Shown here: one piece after another, positions 2,691 through 64,000 of the stretch
How the letters are laid out: the number at the start of each line of letters is the position of its first letter
Numbering within the stretch: position 1 is the first letter of the stretch
Assembly: GCA_025642065.1 (NCBI GenBank)
Contig: JAODUP010000562.1
Span: 208,448-272,447 of the forward strand
Direction of reading: 5' to 3'
Length of the DNA stretch: 64,000 nucleotides
Source of the DNA: Paralvinella palmiformis
Lineage: Eukaryota; Annelida; Polychaeta; Terebellida; Alvinellidae
Made by a program: the position numbers and the translations under genes
Notes under the pieces: generated by a model
Database searches by the model: none
What the model was told of the DNA's origin: nothing
The model's input: only the letters and a program-made list of their open reading frames with translations

Positions 2691-5600
2691 CATGGTGGGT
2701 ATGTTTATGTATATTTATGTACTATTATCCATTTCCCATTAATTGCAACTTCCATCACTTAATTGACCATTTCATATTTAATGCAAATTAGCTTTTGATC
2801 TGGGACAGATTTGTTGTGCTGCCATAACAAGACTAGGGAAAAAGGGGAGCTTTAACCAATGGCGTCACCTACGTTCTTGAATATTTCATTGTTTTTCGTC
2901 TGATTGCAGGTTACGTTTGGTGTTGCGTGTTGTTATCCATAACTGTCTAATTATTTTGCATAAACAGTCATAACAATGCCTGCGAGGGAGAGGAGTCTAA
3001 CAATGCCTCAATGCTTAAAGTCATCTAGGGTTAAAGCCTCCCTTTAGTTGCTTCTTACAGCAAGCGGTGGGAAAGAGAAAATCTCCATCTGAGAGAGTTT
3101 GATCTCCTCAGCATTTTATATAACTGATACTTGGTGATAATAAAATTGTTTATTAATTTTTGTTGTTTATCTCTTCCTAATCAGATGTGGGAAATCTGTG
3201 TTTGAAATAAAGATTACCGAGTAAGTAAATGAATAAGGTAGTGAGTGAGTGAATTGGTGATGCTTTGCCTTGGCGCTGCTCACACCTGGGGCACATAGCC
3301 GAGGAACAACTATTTAAGTAAATATCTCACAAACTCCGGCACCTCGATCCAGACTTTGAGCTCTACAGCAAACTAGCTGCAGCGATACCGGGAGTACCAG
3401 TTACTATTCATTGAACAAACATTTCACATCCAATATCTGAAACATAAATACTACGTAGACGTACCCTTTGTACGTGTATTTTATAATAGATATGGACTAA
3501 AGTATCTGGGTAGGCGAGACACCGAAGTGCAAAGCATAAAATTAACATTAACAATTGATGTTATTAATTAAACAGACTACTGCTGTTTACATGAACCTAA
3601 AGGGACATTCCTATTATTCTATGTCTTGCTAAAACGTACATACTCTCCAGTGAACTGTAAAGATTATTACAAAATGTAGAACATCGTTGTCCTGATACTT
3701 TCTTGAACCATCATGTTCCGAAGCACACAACACAAACTCTTACGGCTTATACTAGCAGCGTATGTATGACACCCGTTTCTTACACGTACACAGCTGTATC
3801 CGGTGAGCCGGAGGCCTATAGATAGGATAGGAGGCTGGATGCTGCTGCACAATGACAACCTGCCAGTTTTCATTTAGTTTTTTCCGTGGACGGCTAGCGA
3901 GACTGTCGTCATATGAACTATAACGGCCAATGTCAAATCTGGAATGGGGCTTCCCGTTCTACACTGGAAGTAAAGCCATTGAACTGTAGGGAATGGAACC
4001 CTACCAGTGGTCATGGCACACGCTTCAGGCTCCCCAAGGTATCACGCTGGCAATCGTAGCGGATACAGCATGAAACATTATTTTAAAACCTGTTAGTGCT
4101 CATACGTGCACCCCCCACACACATACACCCAATGTATTATGAACCCGGAGTAATTTGCTACCCAAGCTTTACCTGACTTAATGCTCCTTGCTGGCTGTAT
4201 TCATACCAACATAGATTACTATTAGAGGCACAATGACAGTCATTACTCGTTGTTTATGAAGGTCTAACATGAGATCTTCAGCGGATGGTGCCCGAGGGGA
4301 TGATGGCCGTCCCTTCATCCGACTCCCCAACCCCCACCCCACCGGCCAGTCAACCGCCCCCCTCGCCACTTGAGCATATCACACATAAACACCATCCTCC
4401 ATACACAGTTAGTCATAATAATAACAAGCTGATAGGCCGTGTATCATGAGCAATTAGCTAACCAGAGAGCATTACATGGCGGACAGTCCATCTACTGGGT
4501 AAACACCACAAATCTACGGTTGATATCTACTTGGGAAAGATGAATGGGACATTAACTAGAATACAGAGTCTGATATTAAACCACAACAGTAGTGGCACAC
4601 AGTGATGTGGCGCATAAAACCACAAGGTGTTATGAAATCACGCACACACACACACACACACTACCGCCTCCCACCACCAACATAACCAAAACGATCAAAT
4701 ATCTCTAAGTCTGATATCAGAAGTTAATAATCTGCGCATACTCAAATAGAACATTCTATTGTGGCTCTGCTGAGAAGAGGATGCGGTGTATCAAAATGTA
4801 GCAATTAGGAACTGAAGTATCGGATTACAAGTCCGATAGGCGTGATTTGTGGCGAAGACCGCAAAAACCGGGACCGCATAAAACGTGTTATCTTGGTGCC
4901 TCAGCAAAACAACCAGATTATGTTGTAACCCGTGATATACAGATAGGATGCCACAAATATCGATATGAATATGTATCTGATCAAATACTAGTAGGTCGTT
5001 CTTCTCCTAGAAGATATAGTAAACCTATCAGCTCTCCGTTAGAAGGGTTTATCAGTAAGTAAACTCTTTATTACCGGAGGAGCACATAATTGATGTGGAG
5101 CTCATATGGTAGTTCTCACAGTGTACCCACAACCACTCAGTATACAATAACATTACTCTGACCATTAATCAACGCCATTGAATGGAAATGTGTACGTTGG
5201 TGTGCTACCGTTGGGTCGCTGTTTGGTAGTCTAACCGGGCTAGGCAAGCTCTGAAGGCAACCAGAATGAGGTAAGATGAAAGGGAGAACAACCCTTAAAA
5301 ACATTGACTGGGATTTGAACCTCATTCCAGGGGAAGTGAAATGGAAAATCTCACCACTACCAGTTTGGCTACAGAGACGGCTAATTAATATCTGTGACTA
5401 TCTTATCTATGGCTAATTATTTCACATCGATTATTCACTTGTAGTGGCTTATCTCTCACTGTTGGCCTATTGACCCTGACATTGGAATCTGTGCCTCCTA
5501 AGATTGTTCCACACCAGTAACGTGTACACAACGAATGAAACAATGCTCATCAGTTAACTAACTAACCTACTGCATCTAAGTTTTGCTTCAGTACGTAAAT

Positions 5601-5886
5601 GTCCATAAACCACAACAAGGCATGACATTCAACAGCAAGGCATCAATACAGGCATATCAACTTGTACGCCGGTACGGAGTGTCCTACTTATGAAACCAAC
5701 TGAGCCAAGACTTGTTTCACATTTATCATCTTCATTTGCTGTGATGGAAAATTGATAAGCAATAAAACCAGTATTTTGTTTTGGAAGCCTGATCTTTTGA
5801 TATGTCAGCTTCTAAGGCCAAACTAAAACCAATCTGTACCTCTACAAAATCGCCCCCCCCCCCACACACACACACACATCACTTAC
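2691..5886. other. Non-coding, presumably sulfotransferase intron
   Basis: Apart from the SINE C-like element at 5190-5385 and a CA run near 4643, nothing is recognisable. The sulfotransferase donor at 5886 opens into this stretch. Confidence 0.5.
5190..5385 (-). mobile_element. SINE C-like, different tRNA head
   Basis: Read on the minus strand, the head has GTAGCCAAACTGGTAGTGG (A box) and GAGGTTCAAATCCC (B box), then a body with GTTGTTCTCCC and GCCCGGTTAGACTACC. The body does not match SINE A or B. Only one copy is seen. Confidence 0.5.
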
Positions 5887-7228
5887 CCTGATACTGATGC
5901 TCCTCCAGTTTTATTGATTGTCTTCTCATGATGAAGCACCATCTCATCCCAGTCAAGATTTAAGAATTTCAGTATACTTCTCATCTGTGACTGGGGATGC
6001 AGCACCAACTGTTCATAAAACACTGGCATACAGACGTCAGAACCAACTTTTAGGCACTCATGATGCATAAACTCAATGGCACGGTTCCAGTCTTGAAGGG
6101 CACCACGGTATGACTGTATGTTAAAGCCTGAAACACCAATACATAGTGATTAAATCAATATCATGTCACACTGCTTTGAAATAACTGTCCAATAAGATCA
6201 AATCACTGCACAGTCTATTAGAAGAGAGATTAACACTTAATTAATTGTTTCAAAGTACCTATAAATCTTTGAACTGACCTTTTATTGTAACATGTCTTGA
6301 TATAATAGAATGAACTGTTGCCCTGCCATCACGAACCATGAAGAGAAATTTTGAGTGAGGAAACATTTTCAGTATTTTATCCATGGACTTCAGAGCAAAA
6401 GGATCTTTATTACACAGTCTAAGTGCCCTTTCTCCATGTTGAGATATAATACTCAGTATGTAGGCAGCTAACGCATTATCAAGCACACTTTCTGTAATTT
6501 TTGCCTGTAATAAACGCTTCATTTCTCGTTGTGATTTCACCATTCCAATATGCATGGCCAGGAGGCGAGGAATGACACGCGTTTCCTCCCCACAACGTAC
6601 ATCTTTGTGTGCATCAAGTAGGACACGCATCAAGGTGGTGCCACTGCGCGGAACACCGCCTACCCAGATCAGTGGAACATCCTTCTTATAGTATACAAGA
6701 TCACTGTCATCATATTGATAGCTTGACTGAAATAAATTAACGTAAATATTAAACAGATGTCAACATCTGTGGAGAATCACTGCACGCACACACGTTAAAA
6801 ATGAATAGTGCACTCTGGACTATGTTAGAACCATTCCCTTTATGATATTTCTAGAGTCAATAAAACTAAATATTTAAAACATTCCAATTTCAGGTATACA
6901 TGCTCACTGTCGAGTTGTAAAGTGTACAACACACAATACCTGACAGATCATAAGTCCACACGCACACACACACACGATAATAACACATACACCACATAAT
7001 AACACACACACACACTCACACAGAAAGACACCCAGAGTAATCTACCTTGACACTGCGTAATGACATGCCACCATCGGCTTTGTCAGGTGTCTTGGCCTGA
7101 TTTGATGACATGTTGATGTTATCAAGGCCATATGATGACCGTAGCTGACCAACAGCATACACTGTCACCAGAATAAACATCACCATGGTCAATAGGCGAA
7201 GACGCCCAATGTTTCTTATCAGTTTCAT
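5887..7228 (-). CDS. TPST: Tyrosylprotein sulfotransferase (TPST), 3 exons, C-terminus missing
   Basis: Golgi type II enzyme that transfers sulfate from PAPS to tyrosines of secreted and membrane proteins (family knowledge). Exons read on the minus strand: 7228-7046, 6726-6279 and 6127-5887. All junctions are AG/GT and the phases agree (0, then 1). The start at 7228 gives MKLIRN, a short cytoplasmic stub, then a signal anchor at about residues 10-29. Exon 2 carries the 5'-phosphosulfate loop [11 protein letters not shown] (residues 83-93), [10 protein letters not shown] with the family's catalytic Glu, and the 3'-phosphate segment [11 protein letters not shown] (about 191-201). Exon 3 carries YEQLVLHP and [15 protein letters not shown], matching the conserved core. 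An acceptor 9 bases upstream of the ATG (exon edge 7237) implies a 5'UTR intron. About 290 of the usual 370 or so residues are present. The donor at 5886 leads to a last exon that I could not find between 1 and 5880, so the gene probably runs off the left edge. Family assignment is firm; TPST1 and TPST2 cannot be told apart. Confidence 0.93.
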
Positions 7229-8168
7229 TGCTGGAGACTGAAAGAAGAAAAACCTAAACTGAAATCTTCATATAATTACAGAGATAAAGCCACAGTAAAG
7301 TCCTGGTTGTAACATATCCTTATTATTAGAACCTCAATGGAAATATGGATTAAACATCTATTATGATACATACAAAATGATGGTGATGTCTTGAGATAAT
7401 CTACAAAACGGCAAGAAGGAATACGTGGTCATCACAATAGTTACAATGATCAGTCAACTAAAAAAAACCAAGAGTGCATTATTATATTTTTAACCAAGTG
7501 ACCTTGACATTCTGTGATTATATCAACATAAACACCGATGTGAACTGATTTATGAAGATCGATGAAAGAGGAAGAGATGAACCGTTGTTAATTGTGTCCA
7601 AACTACAGGAAATATATCTGACTCTGAGCCAACTAATGTTATGATGTAATATAACGATCTAGAGTTGTGTAGCAAACTAGTAATTAGATCTATATATTTA
7701 ATTGATTACAAACACCAACTAACTAAATGTTAGATAACCAAAACAATATATAATAATGTACAATTGTTTATTGATGCGTCATATTCAGATATGGTTCAGT
7801 AAGTCGAAGGGATATGAATAACCAACTGATGTAAATGATAACGAAAGTCTGTTATAACTGATAGACCGATGGCTTGCCCTGTAGAAAATATACAGGAGAC
7901 TTTACATAACATTGGAGAGATACTATAGTAAGATGATACATCCCATGACTGCTATTCCATTATTGAAAAAAGGGATGTTATCATGATATTGTAGAACTTC
8001 TCTCAACGCAACAGCGATGAATATTAATAACAGTGACGCATTTCGAATGATGAATGAAATCACATCAGGAGAAAATAAGTAACTGTGATATCACAGCATC
8101 ATCACATATCGTCATCCAACAGTTAGTGGTTACACCAACAAGCATCGTTTCTGGTGTACTTATTCGTT

Positions 8169-36430: not shown

Positions 36431-38542
36431 TTAAAAGTTTATAGTATTTACATTTTTGGCAAATTATATATTAGCAAACATAATATCAAATGTTAACACA
36501 GTGTAGTGCAATTTCATTAGTCATGTTAATCAATAGTCCACATCATTTCCTGTAACAAAAACCAAGTTTCCGTGTAGTTTCATTTCCAAGCTTGTTCCAT
36601 ATTTGAGCATGAATAGAGGTGTAGTTGATGATGAATATGACACAGGTGTGATATCAAATCCTTACCCCATCTAATTTTCTCCACTGGGGTGAATATTCTA
36701 TTATAGAATGTTAACCTATAGAAAAGAAAAATCCACCCCCCTGCTACTACTGACCATCACATTCATTACCTATAGCATTAAAACAACTCATTTTTATTTC
36801 CCTGTACTCTACTGACTGCTGCTACTAGTGATACAAGGTTCCGAATGGAACACTTCACTACGTGCACAGGTCTTATGATCCAGTACGTGTGATTCGACTT
36901 GAATAGAAAAGGATCTGATCCTCTAGGCTTGTCATTCTACTCCCACTGGCGGACACCTCTTCTGCAATTCTGCTGAGTAAATCTGATTTCCTTTAGTTAA
37001 ATAAATCATGCATATATCATTTGCAGTGTAATTTGTTATGCTTCATTAATAGCCTCTGTTTGTTAAGTTGCTGACACCGTCTTGGACGCACATAATTAGC
37101 CAAGAAATCAGCCTCCTCGTTCTATTTCTTTGTAAGACATTATCAAATACTGGACATTTAGAGGTTTGTGTATGCTATTACTGACATAAATAATTACTTA
37201 TACAATGCTATAATTGATTAAGAAATGATACATCAATGCAAAAGCCCAACATCTAATTTTTAGCACCGGGTGTATATTCTATAGAGGGGGTGAAATTTAT
37301 ATTATAGAAACTGACACCCCTCTCTACCTAGTCAATGGTGATATCTGAAATTCAGCGGATCACTAAAGTCTCTCACTGAGAATGATGAGATCTTGGCTTT
37401 ATGGTCAATCAATGTGGGGATGAACTTGGATTAATGTCCACTAGTCAGTTGTTGACAGTCTCTAGCTACTTGGGTGTCAGAAGTTCTCACTGTTGTTTAA
37501 GGTCTGATTTATAGGCCACAAGATGTTCCGACAGTACTGCTTCATCAAACTGAGATAAGATTATCTCATTATGTGGCTTCAATGGGTCATTGGTCAGGAG
37601 AGTAGTCCATTTGTGACAGACATCAGCATATTGATTGAACTGTCATTCTGATGTGTGTTAATTGCATTGACAATAGGATCCGGTTGATTGATTAAGTCCA
37701 TGGCATTCTTAAATGAGTTATAATCCCTAATTGTTTCACAACACTGCTGTCCATGTAATCTTCATGATCCAGGACAATCTTCATATGGTTGACACTATTT
37801 CAAAATATATGAGTCTAGGCACATAAATTGGTTTTCCCAACGTGTGTCACAAGGACCCTGGGGCATATTTCAGGTTTTGGACTATTTTAGATGGACATTT
37901 CCTGAAAATAACCTATTTTGATTTTTGGATAGGTTTGGACACTTCCCTTAAACTGATGTTTACACCATCAGTATCCTAAACCTACAAGTCCTGGATTATT
38001 TATATAATGCTATCATATTGTTTGCCATCAATCTCAGTGTCTTAGCATTGTATGATAATGTTATATATATATATATATATATATAGGGTGTATTTGATAT
38101 TCACACACACACACACACACAGTCCATGCACCTAGATATATATATTACAGATATATTAATTTTTTATTATTATTAATGAGTGATTTATGTAGGTATATGT
38201 TGTTATCTATGCCTGCTCTCTACCTATTGAAGTCCTGTCTCTCATTATCCAAATACGTACGCCAGCTACTTTTATAATAGGGTTATAGAGAGAACCTTTC
38301 AAGGTACCCTTCCAAAAATCATAGTAAAGGAGAAATTATGTTTCGTCTATTCACCGACCACTTTTAAAGTATAAAGGAGCTTATAGTGTGCTTTCATCAA
38401 TTATAACTGTATTAAATTAATGTTCTATTATAGTTATGTATTATAGTTCTAATACAGTTGCAATATTATAAGTTGATAAACCCTCACTCACTCGTGCGTA
38501 CTCTCGCATGGACACAGCCTTGTACAGGCACATAAACACAGC

Positions 38543-39625: not shown

Positions 39626-41936
39626 GTAAGTAGCTTTATTTCTGTTGTATTCGGTATAATATCAGACGTTGCCGTTCACTAAATTATTAATGCACTGTTT
39701 TATTAGGTATATCCATTTGTTATGATGTTTTTGTAATATGGTGATTAGCTGTTAACCTTTCGTGGAAAAACGATAGGAGTCTTAAAATGCTCCGCCTAAT
39801 AGCCAGCGCCTTAAATTATATTTGTGGCCAATTTTTCCCTATGGCCGTTATCAGTTTTATTGTGAACGCTTGTTTCTACGTTTATTTTCGGAAGATACCA
39901 CGTTTTCATCAACATCATAGACTGGCTCGTCTGCTGTCATTGCGCGATTGATGTATTATTGTTATAATAGATTTAATTTGGCAGAAAGAGCCGTTTAGTT
40001 TTCAATCCATGATTGCACTTCTGGTGATTTGTTGGGATTAACAAAATCAAGCGATAACTGAATGGCACATACCTATCCAGATCGTACATCATGATATAGA
40101 CGTAATCGTTTGTATTCGGCAACGTCAGGTCAGGTCAGGTTGTTTATCGTGTAATCATTAATGGAACGGAAATTGTTCTGGCTAAAGACGGCCAATAGAG
40201 TCTGGAGTCTCGAAAAATAATTAGAGGGAAGTGAAAGGCGTACACTTGAAGAATATTTCATGATTTTGTCGATATTTATAAATGTTGAAAGAATAAGGAT
40301 AATATGTAATTAGAAACTAAGTTAAATGGAGTATCTAAAGCGGAGTTACAAAGTATTTTGAATTAAGGGCCAATTTCGTTTTCTTCGCCCACAAAGGATA
40401 CAGAGAGACGGACAGTTATACTTATACGTTGAAACCCCCTGGCTCCATTTATATCTTTGAATGTTGTCGGGGCAGTTCTCCCCGTTATTACAATAATCTG
40501 TGGCAGGAAATATTAAAAAAAGGAATGAAGCTAAGAACCGAACGAGAAAAGAAGAAAACAAATACGACCAAGCCATATAAGTTTTCTAACTCGACGACTA
40601 AATTGTCTATTTACTAAGTCACTATTACGTTTCATTTATGTTAATATTGGACCATGAAATATGAATCATTACAGCTCAATGTCTTCACTTTCTACTGACT
40701 ATTAAAACATTGTGAAGAACCATAGAGTTAGTTCAGTGTGTCAGCTGATTCATAAAACCAGGTACAGGGATGGTGAATTAAGCAAGAGAAAAATAAATCG
40801 TAAATATATGCATGTAAATAATGTCTGGCGCTCTATAAGAGCTACAAAAACATTGATCATCGAGATGTGTCGTGCCACATTATCTATATCGTGTAGTCAA
40901 TATAAGTGTGTTTACGGCTTTATACGTAATACGGACTAGCTGGCATGTCCTATGCAACCATGTGGTGACGAATCTTGGTTTGCGAGCCTTAGATTGGACC
41001 ACTCTAGACTCCAGTTATTATCAATTACCAATAATCGAAAACAAGCCATTGTGTTATTCGTGAATACAAGTCGACATTTTGTGATACACATTAGTGTTCC
41101 TCAGTTTGCGCCTTTATTTAATAATTCATAAAGTGAGCCATACCAAATTAAGGCCATTACTGCATAAATATTTGTTTCTCGACATTATTCTTAAGTTTAG
41201 CGTAGCACTATGATTGAAATTTTATGACATTTAGTAAGAATAGCGAGAAATACGTATTTTAGTACCTTCCCAAACTGTGTTCTCTTTGTAATATACAAAA
41301 TATGATAATTCTTAATTTTCAGTTATATTATATTCTTTTCATGTGGAAGCCATTGGTGACGGTATTTGCATGCTAGTTCGTGAGTTTCTGGAATTTCTCA
41401 AATCATGTAACATTAATAATGTATATTGTGGGAAGCAATGAATTCAGTAGCAGGTTGGAAAAATTAAAGCCCCTCTACTACCCAGGACATTATCTACCAT
41501 GAAGTTGACTTTATAAGGGTCACTTGTTATGCTGTAGAATACACAGTAAAAGTATATGATGATCACATTGTACTGACAGCTAGTCAACCGTGAAGTGTTT
41601 AATTTATGCTGGCTAAGGTTATTTTAAATCTCCTTCCCAAACAGAGATTTATTGGTTTAATGTTTTACAGACTACTGGAGTAGCGTCGGTTTATTTTGTT
41701 GAACTGGGAAACTGTCCTACATCCAATATTTGAAGATTGATTTGTTTCTAGAATTGAACTGGTGTATCTACAAAATATTGGTAGAACAGTATATTGGTAG
41801 AATATAATTATTTACTAGCGTAACACAGTTCGACTCTAATCGATTTTCATAGACTAGACGCTACCTGTTGGTTGTAGAGAGGTACAGCTGACTGGGATGA
41901 ATCTTACAATTAAATGTATCAAGTTATTATTGTAGG

Positions 41937-42156
41937 TAAAAGTGTTAGGTGTTTTTATCCCTAAAATAAAAACATTTTGGTAAAAGTGTTAGGTGTTTTT
42001 ATCCCTAAAATAAAAACATTTTGGTAAAAGTGTTAGGTGTTTTTATCCCTAAAATAAAAACATTTTGGTAAAAGTGTTAGGTGTTTTTATCCCTAAAATA
42101 AAAACATTTTGGTAAAAGTGTTAGGTGTTTTTATCCCTAAAATAAAAACATTTTGT
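41937..42156. repeat. 44-bp tandem repeat, five near-identical copies with internal hairpin
   Basis: Units start at 41937, 41981, 42025, 42069 and 42113. Each holds the inverted repeat TGTTTTTAT / ATAAAAACA around a seven-base loop (CCCTAAA), so the array is five evenly spaced potential hairpins. Homogeneity implies a recent expansion. Confidence 0.95.
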
Positions 42157-42853: not shown

Positions 42854-44534
42854 GGAGGACATGCCGGCGCTGATAATAATATCGTTCTGGATGAATTCGT
42901 CAACTGTTAGCAGGACATTTAAAAGAGGTTTGTAAGTATTGCTAATTACATTCTCTATGGTTGCATCCCTGCTTAATAAACATGCACATCAATAATTCAC
43001 GTAGCTTCTTCTTCATATCACTTTGCGCAAACTTACAATAGAGTTGTGTAATGCTTATCTCCTAACTTGCAATGTTCCATCGTTTTGTTTGCTACATCTA
43101 CGGTTAAGACATCCTACGTGTACGTCCTTCGATTTAATTAGCGTGACACTAAAACAAATAATTGTGACATTTAATGTCCTAATTTGTGCACGAACAACTA
43201 CCGAATACGGACAATTGTTTTCGGAGATTACGTATTTAATCAAATAAATACATAATGTAATTAATTAATTATTTAAACTCAGATTTTAAAACTTTATGAC
43301 CGAATTTTAAACAAATCGAAGGGTAATATTGTCAGTAATAAATAGGGTTCACATACGTAGAAAATAAACACGTTGTAGACATTGAAAACATATAACTTGA
43401 TTGTGCGGTTGATCCATACTCAATCAGTTTGTCATTGAGAAAATCAAGGTTATATTTGGGGATTTTTTGTTGGCACACCTAGATTCACCATAGAAAAGTA
43501 CATTTTTAAATAAAAGTGTAAAAACTCATTATTTTAAAATTTCTTTTCAATGATTTAAAGTAAAACAAAAACCAATCTCACTTAAATATTATCGTTTTGT
43601 GAATATTTCCCTTAAGTCACACGAAATGTCCAGAAGTCACTCATGTGTTTGGTTGATCGTTCTGTATATCCTGAGAGAGAACTGAAACATTTACTGGGCT
43701 CGTTGTGCCGATGTTTTGTTAAATGCTCGTCACTAGTCTTTAGATATTGCGACCACTTCTCCGGTTTTTAGGCATGGATAAAGTATTGCTGACATCGGAG
43801 ATATTAAACGAGTATCTTTATACAGACTCCAGTTGTTCACATCTTTGGGAAAATATCATTTGGGCTGCGAGTTTTATTGTGGGCCAGTCCAGCTTATGGA
43901 TAAGGATTATAACAAATTTGTTTCAAGTGATTTACACTATATCAAAATTTATAATAATGATGGCTGCCTCCGATAGATATCGTTTGATCTTCTTCAATCG
44001 AAGCTAAACATCTCGCGCACAATTGTTTAGAACCATCTTTCTGATTTTAACTGGGAAATCGGTACACCGAATTGGTTATCTGTGCCAATCAAATTATTTC
44101 AAGTGATTGTTTGGCGGTTTTTCTGGAGAAAATCACTGTCTCCTCGAAGTCTATTATGTATTCCGAAACTGAACTTATCGTATCAGCTCGTCTTGTGTCA
44201 GGTGTGTTACGTAATTCTGGCTATTCTAGCAAGTCAACATAGCGTGTTAATGCATTACTAACATAACAGCGCGCTAGCTCAATTAACCCGAAAGCGCCAG
44301 CGTTTTACATAGAACACACACTCCCGATTCTACGTTTAATTTATAGCGGGTTCATATTTTCTTTCGATTTGCTAGTTGGCATGACGAGATATTATTTATA
44401 TTGCAGGTGGTTCGATTTGACGAGTGAGCTATCCTAACTACACAACAGATGGCCAAGATACTGTAACGGACCAAGCCGTTTTCTGCCGACCTAGGGTTAG
44501 CATTTAGTGTTTAAACGTGCCTTCGTTTACGACG

Positions 44535-45674
44535 ATGCACGATATATTCTCCGGTGGTTTCCTCGATTTGGTAGTGTTCTGCTTGCTGTCGTTGCTGTTC
44601 TACATCTTTTACTGTGCGCCTGGTCGTAAACCTTACTTGTACTACACCAGTTCATCTTTCACGGATTACGTAATAAAAAGGTGTCCCCGGCTCGGCCAGC
44701 CATTTCAGCCAGCCCCAGTTGCCACGAACCGACATCTTCAGACATTGCTGCCGGGATTTCTGCCTCGACCTTCTGTTGTCGTCGAGCGGGAGTACGTCGA
44801 TCTGCCCGATGGCGGCTGCTGCGCTCTAGACTGGGTCGTCCAGTCCGGTCCGTTCTGCTGCAGGAATGGCGACGGGGGAATGCCGGTGTTCATCGTGCTG
44901 CCCGGCCTCACCGGGGATGCTCGGTCGGCGTCGCATCTTTGCAGCTTTGCCCTGGAAAGGGGATACCGGCCGGTTGTCTTCAACAAACGTGGCCACGGAG
45001 GCTCGAGGCTGAAGACGCCCAAGGTACAGAGTTTCGGCGACCCGGACGACTTCCGGGTCGTCGTCGAATACATCCATTCCAAGTATCCAGACGCGCTGCT
45101 GACTGCCTTCGGATCCAGCGCCGGATCTGGACTGCTCGTGTCCTACTTGGGTGAATACGGTCGAGAATGCATTATCTCGTTTGCGGTGTTGGTATCTCCT
45201 GGATACGATGCTGAATTCCTCTTCAAAAACTGCATCAGGCATCCTTACGACTTCCTGCTGGTATCCATGTTGAAGAATGTGCTCAACCAGAACAGAGACA
45301 TTCTAGCGAAAACCGTCGATATGGACAAAGTGATGCAAGCGAAGAGTCTAATAACAATTGAGCAGGAACTCTACTGTACTCTGTATGGATACAGCTCGAT
45401 GGATGAATACTGGAAGCACAACAATCCGGTGAGGAATCCGACCAATATATCCATCCCAGTGCTAGCCATCAGCAGCTTGGACGACCCAATATGCACCAAG
45501 GAATGCATTCAGTACTCACTGTTCTCCGACAAGATGAACCATTCCATTCTGGTAACGACAGAACAGGGCGGCCATTGCGGCTTCTTGGAAGGATGGAGGT
45601 TTGATCACTGGGCCGACAAAATCGGACTAGACTATCTTGATGCTGCCCTAGAATTTCATAATAGTTCTCAATGA
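44535..45674 (+). CDS. ABHD15: ABHD15-like alpha/beta hydrolase, single exon, 379 aa
   Basis: Uninterrupted reading frame of 379 residues. The ATG at 44535 is chosen because an in-frame TAG sits at 44505 with no other ATG between. Residues 9-27 form one hydrophobic segment, so the protein is probably membrane-anchored. The fold follows the YheT/ABHD1-2-3-15 branch: NRHLQTLLPGFLPR (65-78), LPDGGCCALDW (90-100), oxyanion region VLPGLTGDARS (121-131), FNKRGHGGS (149-157), FGDPDDF (167-173), nucleophile elbow GSSAG with Ser195, acid SSLDDP (Asp316/317) and GGHCGF with His347. The triad looks intact. The RGHGGS, FGDP, SYLGEYG and DEYWKHNNP blocks fit ABHD15 better than ABHD1-3. In mammals ABHD15 takes part in insulin control of fat-cell lipolysis; its reaction is unsettled and no such role should be read into this copy. 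The coding region is GC-richer than its surroundings. Confidence 0.88.
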   Translation: MHDIFSGGFLDLVVFCLLSLLFYIFYCAPGRKPYLYYTSSSFTDYVIKRCPRLGQPFQPAPVATNRHLQTLLPGFLPRPSVVVEREYVDLPDGGCCALDWVVQSGPFCCRNGDGGMPVFIVLPGLTGDARSASHLCSFALERGYRPVVFNKRGHGGSRLKTPKVQSFGDPDDFRVVVEYIHSKYPDALLTAFGSSAGSGLLVSYLGEYGRECIISFAVLVSPGYDAEFLFKNCIRHPYDFLLVSMLKNVLNQNRDILAKTVDMDKVMQAKSLITIEQELYCTLYGYSSMDEYWKHNNPVRNPTNISIPVLAISSLDDPICTKECIQYSLFSDKMNHSILVTTEQGGHCGFLEGWRFDHWADKIGLDYLDAALEFHNSSQ

Positions 45675-46983: not shown

Positions 46984-47389
46984 GTGTATAGATAAAGACA
47001 TAGGAGTTCTCTTCCAGTGCTGATGTTGATGATGGTTTAATCTAATAATAATGTGGGACAAAGAACTAACAAATTACGAAGTAAGTTGTGGTTTCATAGT
47101 AATTTCCACCAATCTCGTTCATATCACACACGCACGCGCGCGCGCACACACATACACGCACGCTCGCACACTGCATATGCAAAGGGACACTAAGTGATGA
47201 ACAGAAATATATGAGAAGTAGCTGTTAAGTTTGAGTAAATCATAATATTTACTCAGGATTGAAGAGATATTTCGTCTAGTTCAGTAATAATCCATTGTGC
47301 AGTATTGCTACTATTGTTTTAGCTTAGTCACTTCGTTGCTTCCATATGTAGGTAGTATACACAACACAATTTTGTCACCTATTCAGCAA

Positions 47390-47632
47390 ACTGTTAAAAG
47401 GCCTAACTCTTCAGTTTGTTCAGATAACACCTTGCGATGCCGGACCTCTGTTCCTAACGCATTCTTAGCCATACCAACAACACGTGGAGTGGCAAACGGT
47501 AATACATGTTTCAGAAAGGCTGCTGCAACCTTTTGGAATAATCTTCCAGTAACCATCAGGAAGTGCAAGACCCTTGATACCTTCAAAAAGAAGATAAAAA
47601 CTAATCTTTTGGTTTCAGATTTTCCTAGCTGA
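47390..47632 (+). pseudogene. 3' end of a non-LTR retrotransposon (LINE) ORF
   Basis: The last 60 or so residues before the TGA at 47630 read like the C-terminus of LINE reverse-transcriptase proteins of the L2/CR1/Jockey groups: a Cys/Arg and Pro stretch, then FRKAAATFWNNLP, followed by a spaced Lys-rich FKKKIKTNLL end. No polymerase domain is present upstream, so this is a 5'-truncated copy. The clade cannot be decided from the fragment. Confidence 0.75.
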
Positions 47633-53671: not shown

Positions 53672-55374
53672 AGCAGTTGTTTCTAGGCCATATGTTTTAG
53701 TTTCGACATACCCGCGGGTTAAACAAACGATTCACTTATTTACTCATTCACTCATTTCGCCTGTAGGTGTATCGAGTTACGAATGGGGTCACGCTGCCAT
53801 TATGCGACCAGATACTATATCCTACAGTGACGCAATCGTTGTGCCGGATCCGGAACTTTTGGCGCCATCCGACGGCGTAATAAACTACCTCGATTTCTAC
53901 AGCGTCGATCCCGGCACTAAGTTCAAGGTAATTATTCTACGGTTCGCCGGTAGGACAACAAACAACGGGTCGACGTACAGTGTTCGGGCAATTACAGGCT
54001 ACCTATCGGCCTCTTATCGAGGAAAACAGAGAATCTATCTCCGATTGGACGACGTTTACGTGAGAAAGAATGACATCATCTCGTTTTTGATAGACGATAA
54101 GATGCCGATCCCTTCCGACAGAAAGACGCCTTGTACCGGCAGCCAGAACCTCCTCGTCACCAAACGACGGAATCGATCATTGACGCCGAACGAGATCCTA
54201 AGATTTACGCCCCTCACCCGGGATGAGTGTCGGGTGTTTTCTTACACGATTGATGTCTTGGAATCAGGTAAGTAACACGTGATGACACCCGCCTGGTATT
54301 TATTGTTATCTAGTCATTTGTTTCCAAATATAGACGGATCTGACGTCAACGACGTGCAGGTAGGCCTTGATCTTCGGTGACAAAGAGATAATTTGCAGTA
54401 TGATATCTGGATATATGTATTTATGAGAAATCGGAAAATGGCATATTTAATCTACACACATGCAATCAGTGACACACAAAATATAATGCGTCCGTTTCTA
54501 ACAATTAACTTTTATTTTAGATGAACGTGTCACGATAGACACGGCACCAAGTGACGTCACTGAACAATACCCATATAACAACAGATCGTTGAGCGACATC
54601 AACAACAAAATGTTGCCGGGCAACCTCTGTCGAGTTAACTGTGATATAAGTCCAGTGAGCACGAACCAGATTACTGATATGTACAGATATGTGATATTTG
54701 GTCCACTGATCGTACTTTGGGTGATAGTCTCAGCTGTATGCAGCATCAAGATGAAGCGAACACTTCCGTGCTGCCGGAAGCCAGGTGGCACCACCGTCAC
54801 GCCGTCGAGAGCGGGCGCGCGGCGAGCGCCATCTAGGCGAGGTCGGTTCGGTCGGGTGACGCTGTCGAGAATGCCACCTGCCGGTGCCACGCTTATGCCG
54901 AGCCAGCCAAAGCCGATGATGGACGTCGTCGTTCCCGGGATCGTTCTACCGCCTTATCCGGGCTTCGCCGACCCTGATCCGGACGAGCAGCCGGCTTACG
55001 TCATTGCACCTGGTTATCCTCCGGCCTATCCCCCGCCAGCTTATAGTGTCCGTGATAACAAAACTGAACAGTGCCAGCTGAACCGGCCTGGAGCCATGCC
55101 GGCTGTTGAGGAAGTCGTGGCTTTACGTGGATCGGCACCCGGAGAGACGATTTCCGGTTGTAGGCCGGATTTGACCCCGGTAATAGGACTGGCAGCGATA
55201 GATCGTCCCCTCGAAGCGACTGGTGGTTGTCATGCCGACGATACAGTACGTAGACAATCCCATGACGTGGCGATGGTGTCGCCCCTGCCGGACGAAGTGG
55301 ATTGGACTAGATATTATGACATGTATCCAGGGTCTCCTCCTTCGTATCAAGAGGCAACCGAAACACATATGTAG
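53366..55374 (+). CDS. Type I membrane protein with beta-rich ectodomain and PPxY tail, 477 aa
   Basis: Three exons joined at AG/GT sites: 53366-53444, 53767-54267 and 54521-55374, all phase 1. The ATG lies in a strong context (ACCACCATG) and gives a signal-peptide-like run, RILSCLVYVYG (about residues 17-27). Exon 2 (residues 27-193) is one module with alternating hydrophobic stretches, including INYLDFYSVDPGTKFKVIIL and DVYVRKNDIISFLIDD. This resembles a beta-sandwich domain met in invertebrate secreted proteins, but I cannot name a family. Exon 3 adds two cysteines (GNLCRVNC), a membrane segment at about 250-269 (VIFGPLIVLWVIVSAVCSI), a basic stop-transfer stretch, then a tail of about 205 residues rich in Pro, Gly and Asp. 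The tail has three PPxY motifs: two in PPAYPPPAY and one in PPSYQEA near the end. PPxY motifs bind WW domains such as those of Nedd4 ubiquitin ligases (established knowledge), so regulated turnover or trafficking is plausible. An ATTAAA follows the stop by about 30 bases. Confidence 0.8.
53543..53610 (+). mobile_element. SINE D-like tRNA-derived head
   Basis: GTGCAGTGGTTAAATACC (A box) and CTAGAGTTCGAAACC (B box) spaced as in a tRNA, followed by CT-rich and TA repeats instead of an acceptor stem. It lies in the first intron of the PPxY membrane-protein gene. Confidence 0.5.
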
Positions 55375-58230: not shown

Positions 58231-58540
58231 CTATCCTAACCTGGAGTTGTCGAACCATCCCAATCCGGAAGGGGAATATTTCATTGCCTCAGCCTTGTCG
58301 GGGAGGGCGTAGCTACTTTGTCTCGTGAATTTTCCTTGTCTCCCTAACGTCGTAAGGACCACTGCCGTCACGACGACAACCAGGAAACCAACTGATCCGA
58401 GAATGACAACAAGATGACTTTCCGCCGATTGCGGAACTTGTAATAATAAAATGAATACAATTATGACGTCGACTACAACAGCCACAACAATGACAACAAC
58501 AAAACAATTCAAAACGATGACAAGAACTGAAATTATTATT

Positions 58541-58571
<31 letters not shown>

Positions 58572-59824
58572 TTGAAGAAATGATAGTAGAGTCGACAAAA
58601 ACTGTAGGTAGATATTTTAGTCTTTGTGGCGAAATTATATACTATTTAATACATTTGAACAATAACATATCTTTTAATCACCGCTTTCTGTAGGCTCCAT
58701 CAGCTGTGTGCTCATATCTGATTTCGGATCGTCGTTTCTTTCGGTGCCGGATGAGTTGATTTGTGTCACTGCCGTGTTTGGATTTAATGTGCTACTCTCT
58801 TCGACGGTGACCCTGCTACCCCCTTCATATGTAGTAGTCATAGCCAATTTAAATGTGCTACTTTCTTCTGAATTTATGACGGTAATCGATGTTATTTCGC
58901 TTCCAATTGTAATTGTGCCTGACGCATATTCCGTAATGGTTGAGCTTTCGCGTCCATCATAAGTGCCATTTGGTGTTGATGCGGTACCAACAATATTACC
59001 CGCATTGCCGGACATACTTATTCCAAGATTGCTAACCGTGTCCGAACTCTGCGTCCTATCGTCTAAGATCGTTGATTCTCCTAACGTCTGGATACTTGTA
59101 CCATCGGATGTGGGACTGGCTACAGCTGTGACTGATGAAAGTTTCGTGATCATTTCATTTGCCGTGAGTGACGCATCTTTAGTAGCTACTGAGCTACTTA
59201 GGTCGGTAGTTGTCTGTTTAGTTTCCTCAGTCTCAAAAACCGTTGAGATGACCGTCTCTCCGGTGGTGTCCATTCCGGATGTTTCAGATCTTGGATTTGA
59301 TATTGTTATTACATCGTCCGTGAATGTTGACTGAGAGACATCCGACAGGGGCCAGGTTACCAGGCTATTATCAGACGTAGACTCTGTCATTGTAGAACTG
59401 GTCAGAATAGCCGATGTACTTGTCTCTCCATCACTACTGGTTGTTGTTGTTTTCGCATCACCCGTTCCTGTTAAACAGCGAATATGAATAATTCCATTCA
59501 TAAAGAAACACAAATATTTAACACATGCGCCGTAATATAATGTTTCTTATAATAGACATGTTTAAAAGGCGGACTTCAAAGCTTGTTCCTGTTCAGGTAT
59601 ACTTTGACCTTCGGGCCTTATAACTAAGGATTTAGAATAATTAAAACAAATCATAGTCCCAATCATAGTCCTAACCAATGTCATAACAGACGGATAGACA
59701 GACAGACATGCAGACAGACAGACAGACATATTTACATACATACATACACACATACATACCTAAATACATACATACAGACAGGCAGACAGACAGACAGACA
59801 GACAGACACGCACGCGCGAACACA

Positions 59825-59855
<31 letters not shown>

Positions 59856-60413
59856 CACATTCGCTTTTAAATAAATGGATGTTTAGTTCTGCGATGAATA
59901 TCCTGATATGAATATACACTATTGACGAAGCCAGTTCGATCTCCCGGATGTAGGTTTATAAATTAGTAGATTATAGCTTCCTTGAATGAATTATGATTAT
60001 GATTTGGTTGTGTTGAGCGGAGTAAATTTCCCGTCACGAAATAACATCTAAATTAAACCTTCTTTGTCTGGAAATGGCTACATTTGTCAAACACTAATCT
60101 TTGCTAGTCGCCCGTAAGTCCACAGGTTGTGTAATCGAAACACAATGCTACCTCTATTGAAAATGGATGTTTCATTCGATCATATCATGTTCCCGGAGGG
60201 TATGACTTCAGCCATATGTCACAGGTGTGACCAAGGCTAAACGAAGCCATCACGCGCTTAGTCATCTAACCCTACAGTCATATGTTATAAGGATCATTTA
60301 TGTCAGATGTACTTACCGAGTAGTAGCATCCCAATTGTTAACAAGAATGAAATCATCCACGCTTCAGAGGATCTCCGTTCTGTATTAGGTTCTCGACACG
60401 CTCGATTAGCCAT
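58231..60413 (-). CDS. Ser/Thr-rich mucin-like single-pass membrane protein, 362 aa
   Basis: Three minus-strand exons: 60413-60317, 59467-58682 and 58436-58231, all junctions AG/GT and phase 1, total 1089 nt including the stop. The ATG at 60413 follows an in-frame TGA 12 bases upstream. Exon 1 ends in a hydrophobic run, MISFLLTIGMLLLG (about residues 20-33), acting as signal peptide; the 19 residues before it are polar, so Met20 could be the functional start. Exon 2 encodes 262 residues dominated by Ser and Thr, with no cysteine and two N-glycosylation sequons (NGT, NSS), as expected of a heavily O-glycosylated stalk. Exon 3 has a membrane span at about 303-325 (LVVILGSVGFLVVVVTAVVL) and a 37-residue tail with SSYALPDK and MKYSPSG. 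The donor of exon 2 (GTGATT) is weak. There is no recognisable folded domain, so orthology cannot be assigned. Composition also leaves the opposite strand open, but that strand lacks a matching gene structure. Confidence 0.8.
58530..58572. repeat. (ATT)n microsatellite
   Basis: Pure ATT run with one interruption, within the second intron of the mucin-like gene. Confidence 0.95.
59695..59860. repeat. Compound GACA, CATA and CA microsatellite
   Basis: GACA, CATA, GACA and CA runs in series, in the first intron of the mucin-like gene. They are too low in complexity to be coding. Confidence 0.95.
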
Positions 60414-61086
60414 CTCGAAATTTCAAAAGTTAGTTAGATATACCAAAAACAATGAAAAACAGCTTGTTAAAATTTCAATTATGGAATCTGTGAGCCAAAC
60501 TGATTTCACTGTATGTTGAAAAGATCTCTGTGTTGCCTTGTGTGAGATTTCGTGTAACACTGGATGACACGTCAAGGCTGTTAAGATGTTTGCATTAGAA
60601 AACAAGACAGACACCTATTATTACGTGAACAGTGGTCTTATTGTCACGATATATTCTATGTAAACGAATGCTTTCCTCGTCGACAAAGATAGCATTATAC
60701 GGGGAATCGTGGTTGAACAGACCAACAGACAGACAGATAGACAAACAAGCCGACAGACAGACACAGAAATAACCACAAACCCCCCCACCCACACACAAAC
60801 TTTGAAGTAATTAAATGAAAACACTTCAGCTAGCAGAAATCTCGATATTGCCTGATGTTTAGAGATCCTGACATTAGTGTGGATCTTTTGTTAAAGCGTT
60901 CTACTATTGTGAAAGTAACACAATACCGCTGTCAGTGTTCTGAGGCAGGTATGTGTTCTTGTAGATTTACTTTGATTCGAACCGGTTGCATCGGAATGTT
61001 GAGCAAAAATCTCGACCCTTAACCGTATTGCCACACGCTGTGTACTCTTTCCTCCAGCCACGTAGTTCAATCGTACCACGGGAATC
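60414..61086. promoter_or_regulatory. Divergent intergenic region, putative bidirectional promoter
   Basis: 673 bases between the minus-strand ATG of the mucin-like gene and the plus-strand ATG of the 89-residue gene. It contains a short GACA repeat near 60720-60765. There is no clear TATA box. The 5' ends are unknown, so promoter function is inferred from geometry only. Confidence 0.35.
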
Positions 61087-61647
61087 ATGTCGTATATGTT
61101 AAGACTTTTCCAGCTACTGGCCGACTACATGTGTGGTTCAGGTAAGGTATCGCAGGCCAGTAGATAGAGGAAATACATAGGGGTAAAGTCGTGATAAAAT
61201 AAACTCGCTTTAAGTCCACTAGCTGGGGGCGGGGTATGCTGGGGGTAGCTCGAAAGCCGCGAGTCTCCCACTCCAGCATTAGTGAAGAAGCGTAGTTTGA
61301 TATTACTCAGCGAATAATAATATTAACATATTTCTAATGAGAAAAAACCAAACTACCTTTGCTGGTGCGCGTTATGTTTAAAAATAATAAAACTAACAAT
61401 CGGGAAATATTTACCAATCAAAGGGTTTCGCTGAAATAGTTATAGGTTTGTTACAGGTGTAAAACAACTCTGAGGTCTATAGATGAAAATACGGAATCGT
61501 CTTCAGAATTTGACACTTTGTAAAGTTCCGACTTCATGAAATACTGACAGATAGTCCGGGCTAAGACCTGTCTGTGCTTTATATGGGATGAGAAGAACAC
61601 GGAAGAGTATTTGATGTTCACTTGCCAAGCTAATAAAGCAATAAATC

Positions 61648-61709
<62 letters not shown>

Positions 61710-63168
61710 GCTATTCACATTCTGAAAGGTAAAGCCAACGCTTATAAATGATATTTTGTAATTTTACTGCTCTCACCTTTCCCAGATAAGTTAATTAAAA
61801 TCACAATTCATTTTCCTCGCTCAAGGTAGTTATTATCTTTATATAAACTCTGATCATCACGAACCGGACTGTACATATCATAGTAGATCGTCATATTACA
61901 TGTGATGCAAGGGATTAACATATTATTCTTCCCGTGATGGTAAAAGTGAATATTACTTGTAATGTTATTCACTTGTAGTACAATCTCCACATAAAACGAA
62001 TTCTCATTTGAATAATTTTCATTTCATTTTGAGCGAAATAACATACATAACATGCTGTGACTAATTCCTAAGTTAAATCAGAACATTTCAATATCCGAAT
62101 TCCTAATATGGTTTTATTAAAAAGGTGTACTAAATGGTAAATAAAGGTCGTAATAAAATGATCTTAATCTGTGTAATCAATTGTTATTGATACTTAATTA
62201 TTTATTTTATGACACACGTGCCTACAATCGAACTCTTACTATACATTTTTTTTCATATCCATGTAAATAAATGTCCTTTTCCAGAGATGTAACAGCCAAA
62301 ATCAGCTCGATTTAGAGAGAAAAAGCTAAATAATCACAAAATTGTTACTCACTATCTAAAATGTACAACATAGAACTTGTTGACATCATTAATCAGGATC
62401 AGAGATGATCTTATCACGTAACGGTTCTAACTGTGCCTACCTGTGATGGTAACTTCCATTTTTCACTAACACCCGCTGTTTTCCTGTTGACGTCCAGTTG
62501 ACGTAAATCGGGATCCCAAATATTTATATCCGGAACAGGTTTATATTTCGCCGGATCTTAAAATTCTCAGAGATATCATTTTATTTCCTAGAACAATCAT
62601 ATTAATTTTTTTCACAGAACGAGAGTTCTACGAGACGGTTAGACATTATAAGCTTGGAAAGTTGAATATTTACTTCATCCAGGTGAAGAATGTACCTGAA
62701 ATTGAAGAACCTGTATCGAGTAGGATTATGCCCTTAGTACAGTTAATGAAAGACAAACAGACTACTCTTCATGGAGGTATATTCTCTAACATCTAAACAT
62801 CCGGTTTGAAGAATTACTTCAGCGATGCTTTTGTCAGAAAACTATAATTGCTTAAAAAGTAGTTAACCCAAAACAAGGTTTACGTTATCTTAGAATAAAA
62901 ACTATTTCCCGAAAGTTTCGACATGATGTTTACTGTTCGAAAGGCTGGTTATTTTATTGTCTAATTTCGGTGTGTGCGCGCGCGCGCGCGTGTGTGTGTG
63001 TGGAGGGGGGATTGAGGTTGGGTGCGCTTGCGTGGTTGTGAGCGTGTAGATGTGTGCATGCATGTGTACAATGTGTGTGTGTGTGTATATATGTGTGTGT
63101 ATTGTTTAACAGGGTGTGAATATACGCCGGAGCAGATACTGGATTTAGAGGAACGAGTTTTTTGTTAA
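61087..63168 (+). CDS. Unrecognised small protein, 3 exons, 89 aa
   Basis: Exons 61087-61141, 62618-62776 and 63113-63168 join at GTAAGG/TTTTTTCACAG and GTATAT/TTTAACAG, both introns phase 1, into one frame of 90 codons ending in TAA. The ATG at 61087 has an in-frame TAG 24 bases upstream. The protein starts MSYMLRLFQLLADYM, continues with EREFYETVRHYKLGKLN and IYFIQVKNVPEIEEP, and ends EYTPEQILDLEERVFC. It is mixed in charge and probably largely helical; there is no convincing signal peptide or membrane span. I do not recognise a family. The consistent phases, in-frame upstream stop and strong splice sites make chance unlikely, although each exon is short. AATAAA at 63528 could be its polyadenylation signal. 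It is divergent from the mucin-like gene. Confidence 0.68.
61651..61704. repeat. (TA)n microsatellite
   Basis: About 54 bases of pure TA in the first intron of the 89-residue gene. Confidence 0.95.
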
Positions 63169-63539
63169 GAGTTATGATTGTGTTTTAGATGTATCACGAT
63201 GTATCAGGATGTTGCCATCAGGATTCCCATTAAATGCTGCCAATGTTTCTCCTTTTTTCTGCAGATATATTCTGCAATGGCATATGTTCACCACTGGCTG
63301 TGCACTTATTTGTTTATCAAAAACAATTTCCTTCCTTTTAACGGCAATCCGGCTGAATACTGCGTAGACTCGTAGGTTAGAAACGCCACTAACGCAATTA
63401 TACGATAACATTGGCAAGACGTACATCATACAATGGTATACTTAGAAACAAGTTATCGCTTCACTTCAAGCAATTAAAACAGAAACTACCGGATTATTAA
63501 ACAAAATCAGATTGTCTAACAATGAATAATAAATCAAAC

Positions 63540-63560: not shown

Positions 63561-64000
63561 TTTGGGGGTTGGGGTTGGTGGGGGTAGTTTTGTCAAGTAA
63601 ATTGAAAAATAGATGTACAACAAACCATGTGAAACTTATATTTCTTCCTCTGTACTATATCAAGTAAGTTGCGTCAATTGTCTTTAGTATGTTTACATTA
63701 CTAAACCTCTAATGATCAATAATACTGTCCTAATCGATAATAGTTTGATAATTAGTCATTTTAGCATTAGTCAAGAATCTTTTAGAATTACCATTTTATT
63801 GTAAAACAGAATTAATACTTAACTAGCTCTGAGTCATAAGGGGCCTGACTGAATCACAATAAAACTAATTGTAGGTCCATATCTCATTGACTATTGTCTA
63901 CTAGTTTTAGGTTATGTAACCAATGATAATCAGTTAACACCTAGACGATATCAGTCTCGGCGTCTAGTTTTAAATACACGGTCAGCGAACCTATTTTCCA

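Follow-up and report, generated by a model that had tools for sequence, protein, structure and literature searches.

A phase-matched three-exon frame of 89 residues near a contig end: most likely a rapidly evolving orphan gene for a small protein, or else a product of chance

Close to the end of a contig, three short + strand exons join into a frame of 89 codons and a TAA, and the two likeliest readings of the locus are a rapidly evolving orphan gene for a small protein and a join that arose by chance. We put at about 40% the probability that a real, spliced small coding gene is present here, and we infer its transcription, splicing and translation. An orphan gene is plausible but unproven, because joins as good are common, other joins fit the locus and no relatives were found. 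The window, by which we mean the whole stretch of DNA that was analysed, runs from base 208448 to base 272447 of a contig 272,447 bases long, in a genome of 594 Mb and 2597 contigs. Its last base (window base 64000) is thus also the end of the contig, and further exons may be lost on the downstream side.

The exons of the 89-residue model lie at 61087-61141, 62618-62776 and 63113-63168 and measure 55, 159 and 56 nt. Both junctions are in phase 1, both introns are bounded by GT and AG, and an in-frame TAG (61063-61065) stands upstream of the ATG at 61087. The model thus has what is asked of a coding gene, a reading frame that stays open between start and stop while crossing canonical splice sites. 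The initial annotation had described three short exons with phase 1/1, canonical sites, an upstream in-frame stop and 89 residues, and this proved exact on re-reading. Its first exon needs correction, since 61087 is the start codon rather than a border, acceptor 61058 being the probable beginning of the exon; and the protein is complete in that start, stop and frame fit, although other N-termini and another C-terminus fit too. The features are as follows, with exon borders marked by a slash.

60855-60948, + strand: 3' part of exon 0, a possible upstream exon, from ATG 60855 to the donor CAG/gtatgt
61058-61141, + strand: top acceptor-donor pair, holding the in-frame TAG 61063-61065 and ATG 61087
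61087-61141, + strand: coding portion of the 89-residue model's exon 1, MSYMLRLFQLLADYMCGS, leaving phase 1
62618-62776, + strand: exon 2 of the model, with one frame free of stops, open over 62491-62793; alternative acceptor at 62592
63113-63168, + strand: exon 3 of the model, closed by the stop codon TAA 63166-63168; acceptor score 2.92
63265-63341, + strand: alternative last exon, acceptor ccttttttctgcag/ scoring 8.2; gives 96 residues ending ...GDIFCNGICSPLAVHLFVYQKQFPSF, with TAA 63339-63341

Splice sites were scored with a generic animal matrix, and ranks refer to the + strand of the window. The donor at 61141 (CAG/gtaagg, score 7.84) ranks second of 3602 GTs, and with the acceptor at 61058 (ctttcctccag/CC, 5.71) it bounds an exon whose sum of 13.55 is the highest of any 50-300 nt acceptor-donor pair in the window on either strand, the runner-up being a minus-strand pair at 36666-36715 (13.41). 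Pairs of at least 13.55 were present in one of 20 one-strand Markov-1 sequences and in none of 43.5 kb of other DNA of the genome searched on both strands, where the best reached 13.39. Upstream, the donor at 60948 (6.14) suits the end of a preceding exon. The acceptor of exon 2 ranks 54th and that of exon 3 92nd of 3425 AGs, while the donor of exon 2 (GAG/gtatat) is weak, at rank 177 of 3602 GTs and a score of 1.49.

The coding statistics are close to neutral. A codon model built from 17 reading frames of the genome (9057 codons), which discriminates poorly, gives 2.4 bits over the 89 codons, and with a 15-frame model, also of poor discrimination, the join comes 18th of 34 in per-codon score. 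Four sulfotransferase exon rows of the window score below the 89-residue join, so the codon test has little power. These rows belong to the exons of a sulfotransferase gene at about 4766-7237 on the minus strand, in which 6259-6759 matches Sulfotransfer_3 (E 2.7e-32) and which we take to be tyrosylprotein-sulfotransferase-like (TPST). When stops are ignored, the frame of the model is second, third and second of six in exons 1, 2 and 3, with scores of 0.06, -0.013 and 0.089 set against best values of 0.172, 0.087 and 0.196. In amino-acid composition exon 2 resembles known proteins and is unexceptional, since of 300 stop-free stretches taken from the window 41 reach its score. AlphaFold2, given the single sequence of exon 2, predicts two strands and a helix with pLDDT 66 and pTM 0.29, and a single control, 52 residues antisense to intron 1, gave 57 and 0.34. 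With these values, the earlier impression of a real, structured protein is a weak one.

It had also been argued that exons this small would escape length-filtered gene finders. Passages of a gene-finder benchmark (PMC7147072) state that Augustus and Genscan predict exons of 50-200 nt better than longer ones, that exons below 50 nt generally have the lowest accuracy, and that proteins of fewer than 100 residues are frequently missed. The argument from exon size is therefore wrong, as 55, 159 and 56 nt all fall within 50-200, whereas a protein of under 100 residues is indeed of a kind often missed.

No relative emerged from any of the collections searched. The 89-residue model returned no rows in Pfam, PADLOC or PDB at E up to 10, and the earlier statement that no family is recognisable stands, with nothing over a curated cut-off in Pfam or NCBIfam and no PADLOC match; nor did the 96-, 102- or 134-residue alternatives give a Pfam family over its curated cut-off. 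The rows that did appear are taken as chance: for the 89-residue model, the esterase YqiA family PRK11071 (its sole NCBIfam row, E 0.061 and 13 bits, far under the 252-bit cut-off), and, for the 102-residue join only, DUF6436 (PF20029, its best Pfam row, E 0.018 and 15.2 bits over residues 15-60, under the 27.3-bit cut-off). The de novo designed Trx-3 (PDB 8xyw), the sole PDB row and again for the 102-residue join only, is not significant (E 1.1, 13 bits, residues 28-79). Against about 5.8 billion proteins the 89-residue model had no candidates at database lengths of about 49-156, and three when the query was padded with X to reach lengths of about 135-430, none with E up to 10. That search needs three exact five-residue words, which we estimate to mean some 50-60% identity or more, and it therefore misses diverged orthologues. 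The same search with an ABHD15-like frame as a control returned 298 relatives, molluscs and annelids among them, so animals of that kind are covered by the database. The control frame is itself a feature of the window, an unbroken 380 codons from an ATG at 44532-45671 (+) encoding an ABHD15-like alpha/beta hydrolase (Pfam Hydrolase_4) with matches in molluscs, annelids and hemichordates, for which reason the source is taken to be an animal; among the best 120 of the 298, the top row is 61% identical across 95% of the query. Within the genome, the 89-residue model (three candidates, the first exon being checked at the protein level) found its own exons only and no paralogue. Exon-2 DNA found itself alone, and so is not a recent abundant repeat. 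One stretch of the viral contigs fits a word pattern and none encodes a relative, Rfam gave no match in the window at gathering score, and a tRNA search found none.

The window has several other features. Two frames at 53673-55374 (+), neither with a Pfam match, are possibly one membrane protein, the first having a soluble-looking domain and the second combining a hydrophobic stretch with PPAY/PPSY motifs rich in proline. On the minus strand, a serine/threonine-rich frame without a Pfam match (58674-59546) is followed at 58231-58641 by one that contains a hydrophobic stretch, and 58231-59546 is a candidate mucin-like membrane protein, divergent from the model examined. A further frame, again with no Pfam match, lies at 47291-47632 (+) and by its sequence presumably resembles the C-terminal end of a LINE-type element. 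A tandem array of a 44-base unit occupies 41935-42155, with 5.0 copies and 100% matches.

How readily such a join arises bears on the reading that it is merely three unrelated stop-free stretches with splice-like borders, of a kind that one would nearly always find in 64 kb, and that no protein is made; we give this reading somewhat short of even odds. We counted three-exon models of at least 80 codons with introns of 60-1600 nt and a summed site score at least that of the 89-residue model. Joins as good begin from 34 distinct acceptors in the window, 18 on the + strand (the model's included) and 16 on the minus strand, some of them belonging to real genes. Ten one-strand Markov-1 sequences yielded far fewer, 0-4 distinct acceptors each, which speaks against chance, as does the place of exon 61058-61141 at the head of the pairs of the window. 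Real genomic DNA is the fairer control for such counts, and 43.5 kb of it (87 kb-strand; pieces L002, L003, L030, L031 and L033, with L032 of 127 bases left out) holds 11 distinct acceptors over both strands, or about 8 per 64 kb per strand; eight of the 11 come from one 10-kb piece, L033, where real genes may contribute. The 89-residue join is thus not better than the chance joins of its own genome, and, with equally good joins common in both the window and the genomic control, the join alone is no evidence of a gene. As to exon 2 considered singly, internal exons of 159-300 nt with an open frame and both sites at least as good as its own occur at three distinct acceptors per strand of the window, and at 0-3 in the ten Markov-1 sequences. 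The neutral codon usage, the lack of a homologue in the protein database and the several mutually exclusive joins that suit the same place are likewise consistent with chance.

These competing joins also allow for a real transcript that is read otherwise. The fully open frame through exon 61058-61141 is HVVQSYHGNHVVYVKTFPATGRLHVWF and not that of the 89-residue model, which has an in-frame stop in this top-scoring exon. Joined to the donor at 60224 upstream and to the acceptor at 62592 downstream, HVVQSYHGNHVVYVKTFPATGRLHVWF enters the frame of exon 2 and gives 134 residues over four exons. A spliced transcript that is non-coding or uses another frame, with exon 61058-61141 real and exons 2 and 3 either unused or read in another way, would accommodate this, yet we regard it as unlikely, since the 134-residue model is equally without a relative in Pfam, PDB or the genome (where rows at E 1.47 and 7.11 are taken as chance) and it does less well in codon usage (-0.08 per codon in a 122-residue variant versus 0.024 for the 89-residue model, by the 15-frame model). 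At the other end, the acceptor at 63265 is much stronger than that of exon 3 (8.2 versus 2.92), and the 96-residue version that it produces has no Pfam row. As for exon 0, it may be a 5' leader carrying an upstream frame of 33 codons that stops at TAG 61063-61065, or else may itself be an alternative coding exon at the start, for its stretch from ATG 60855 to donor 60948, joined straight onto exon 2 in phase 1, gives 102 residues. Since the donor at 60948 shares phase 1 with exon 1, exon 61058-61141 could be kept or skipped. An orphan gene might exploit this by means of a cassette exon that bears the start codon, splicing then exchanging the N-terminus of a shared C-terminal body: skipping would join exon 0 to exon 2 and yield the 102-residue protein (MFRDPD...), and inclusion would end that frame at the TAG, 21 nt before the ATG at 61087 from which the 89 residues would be made. 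For this arrangement the phases were computed and we infer all else, and we consider it quite improbable.

Two origins in known sequence families fared worse. That the model is the C-terminal half of a TIR domain severed from its first half was suggested by a by-eye register resembling box 2 to box 3 of TLR1 and TLR2, and the best pairwise alignment to TLR2 sits in the same register. However, of 500 shuffles, 229 reached the score with TLR2, 226 that with TLR1 and 477 that with MyD88; the model scores -0.1 bits on a profile built from 18 TIR frames of this genome (line 186 in a table with 999 shuffles), and none of the 18 TIR matches of the genome lies on the contig of the window. With no profile match above shuffles and no Pfam row, a TIR domain (PF01582) is rejected at the sequence level, and we give the idea a negligible chance. 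Of the 18 matches (L004-L021), 13 lie in open frames of more than 700 residues, in one case interrupted by a stop within the match, and are possibly intronless Toll-like receptor genes.

The other proposed origin, of the 102-residue join (exons 0, 2 and 3) as an exapted, diverged non-LTR (LINE-type) linker from upstream of a reverse transcriptase, arose from a comparison with its own genome. Besides its own exons, the join found four colinear matches, three over query residues 2-84 and one over 2-93, at 25-27% identity and E 0.34, 3.35, 4.0 and 9.6, and for each of these pieces 0 of 5000 shuffles scored as high. We take the element to be LINE-type from recognition of its sequence, and a Pfam scan of one 245-residue piece gave no retrotransposon family. 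Against the proposal, once the join is taken apart 5-59 of 3000 shuffles reach the score of exon 0, and 0, 39, 10 and 303 of 3000 that of exons 2 and 3 together, for the four pieces, all of which come from one subfamily. Among 20 further pieces, taken from the listed matches of the family, only L058, of that same subfamily, beat the shuffles (0 of 1000), the scores of the other 19 being reached by 61 to 804 of 1000, and a profile of these 20 pieces places the join at 61 of 918 reported rows. As the genome E of 0.34 is what chance would give, the match is taken as chance. With no family-profile match above shuffles, the wider set largely refutes a LINE-linker origin, which is left with a very small probability. 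The linker family is very abundant, with 2511 first-look candidates of which 150 were scored; by eye it falls into several subfamilies, as low as 33% in identity to the query, and one copy lies on the window's own contig at 107098-107544.

Returning to a real small coding gene, we count for it the top-scoring pair of exon 61058-61141, the suitable donor upstream at 60948 and the rank of acceptor 62618 (54 of 3425), together with a frame that continues over both junctions between a start with its upstream stop and a stop, the protein-like composition of exon 2, and exon-2 DNA that is not a recent abundant repeat. Counted against it are the common equal joins, the near-equal pairs of 13.41 and 13.39, a codon score of about zero, a frame that is not the best of six, the weak donor at 62776 and the stronger acceptor at 63265, as well as sequence searches that returned no homologue and no paralogue. 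Were the gene real, a pre-mRNA starting upstream of 60948 would be spliced from 60948 to 61058, from 61141 to 62618 and from 62776 to 63113 (or 63265), and ribosomes would start at ATG 61087, or at ATG 60855 where exon 61058-61141 is skipped. Frame, phases and site scores are the computed part of this scheme. The product, some 90-100 residues long, would be a small protein lacking any family relative and most likely fast-evolving, lineage-restricted and, presumably, intracellular.

If it is not real, the locus illustrates how cheaply this genome supplies three-exon joins with matching phases, which are then not evidence by themselves. If it is real, it adds one more lineage-restricted small protein to the large known class of unannotated small-protein genes, and serves chiefly as a test of how many genes of fewer than 100 residues gene finders miss. 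Orphan, or taxonomically restricted, small-protein genes are a known class in animals. The present candidate differs from that class in being known here from sequence alone, and it resembles its members in its shortness, its GT-AG introns and its want of a detected homologue or paralogue.
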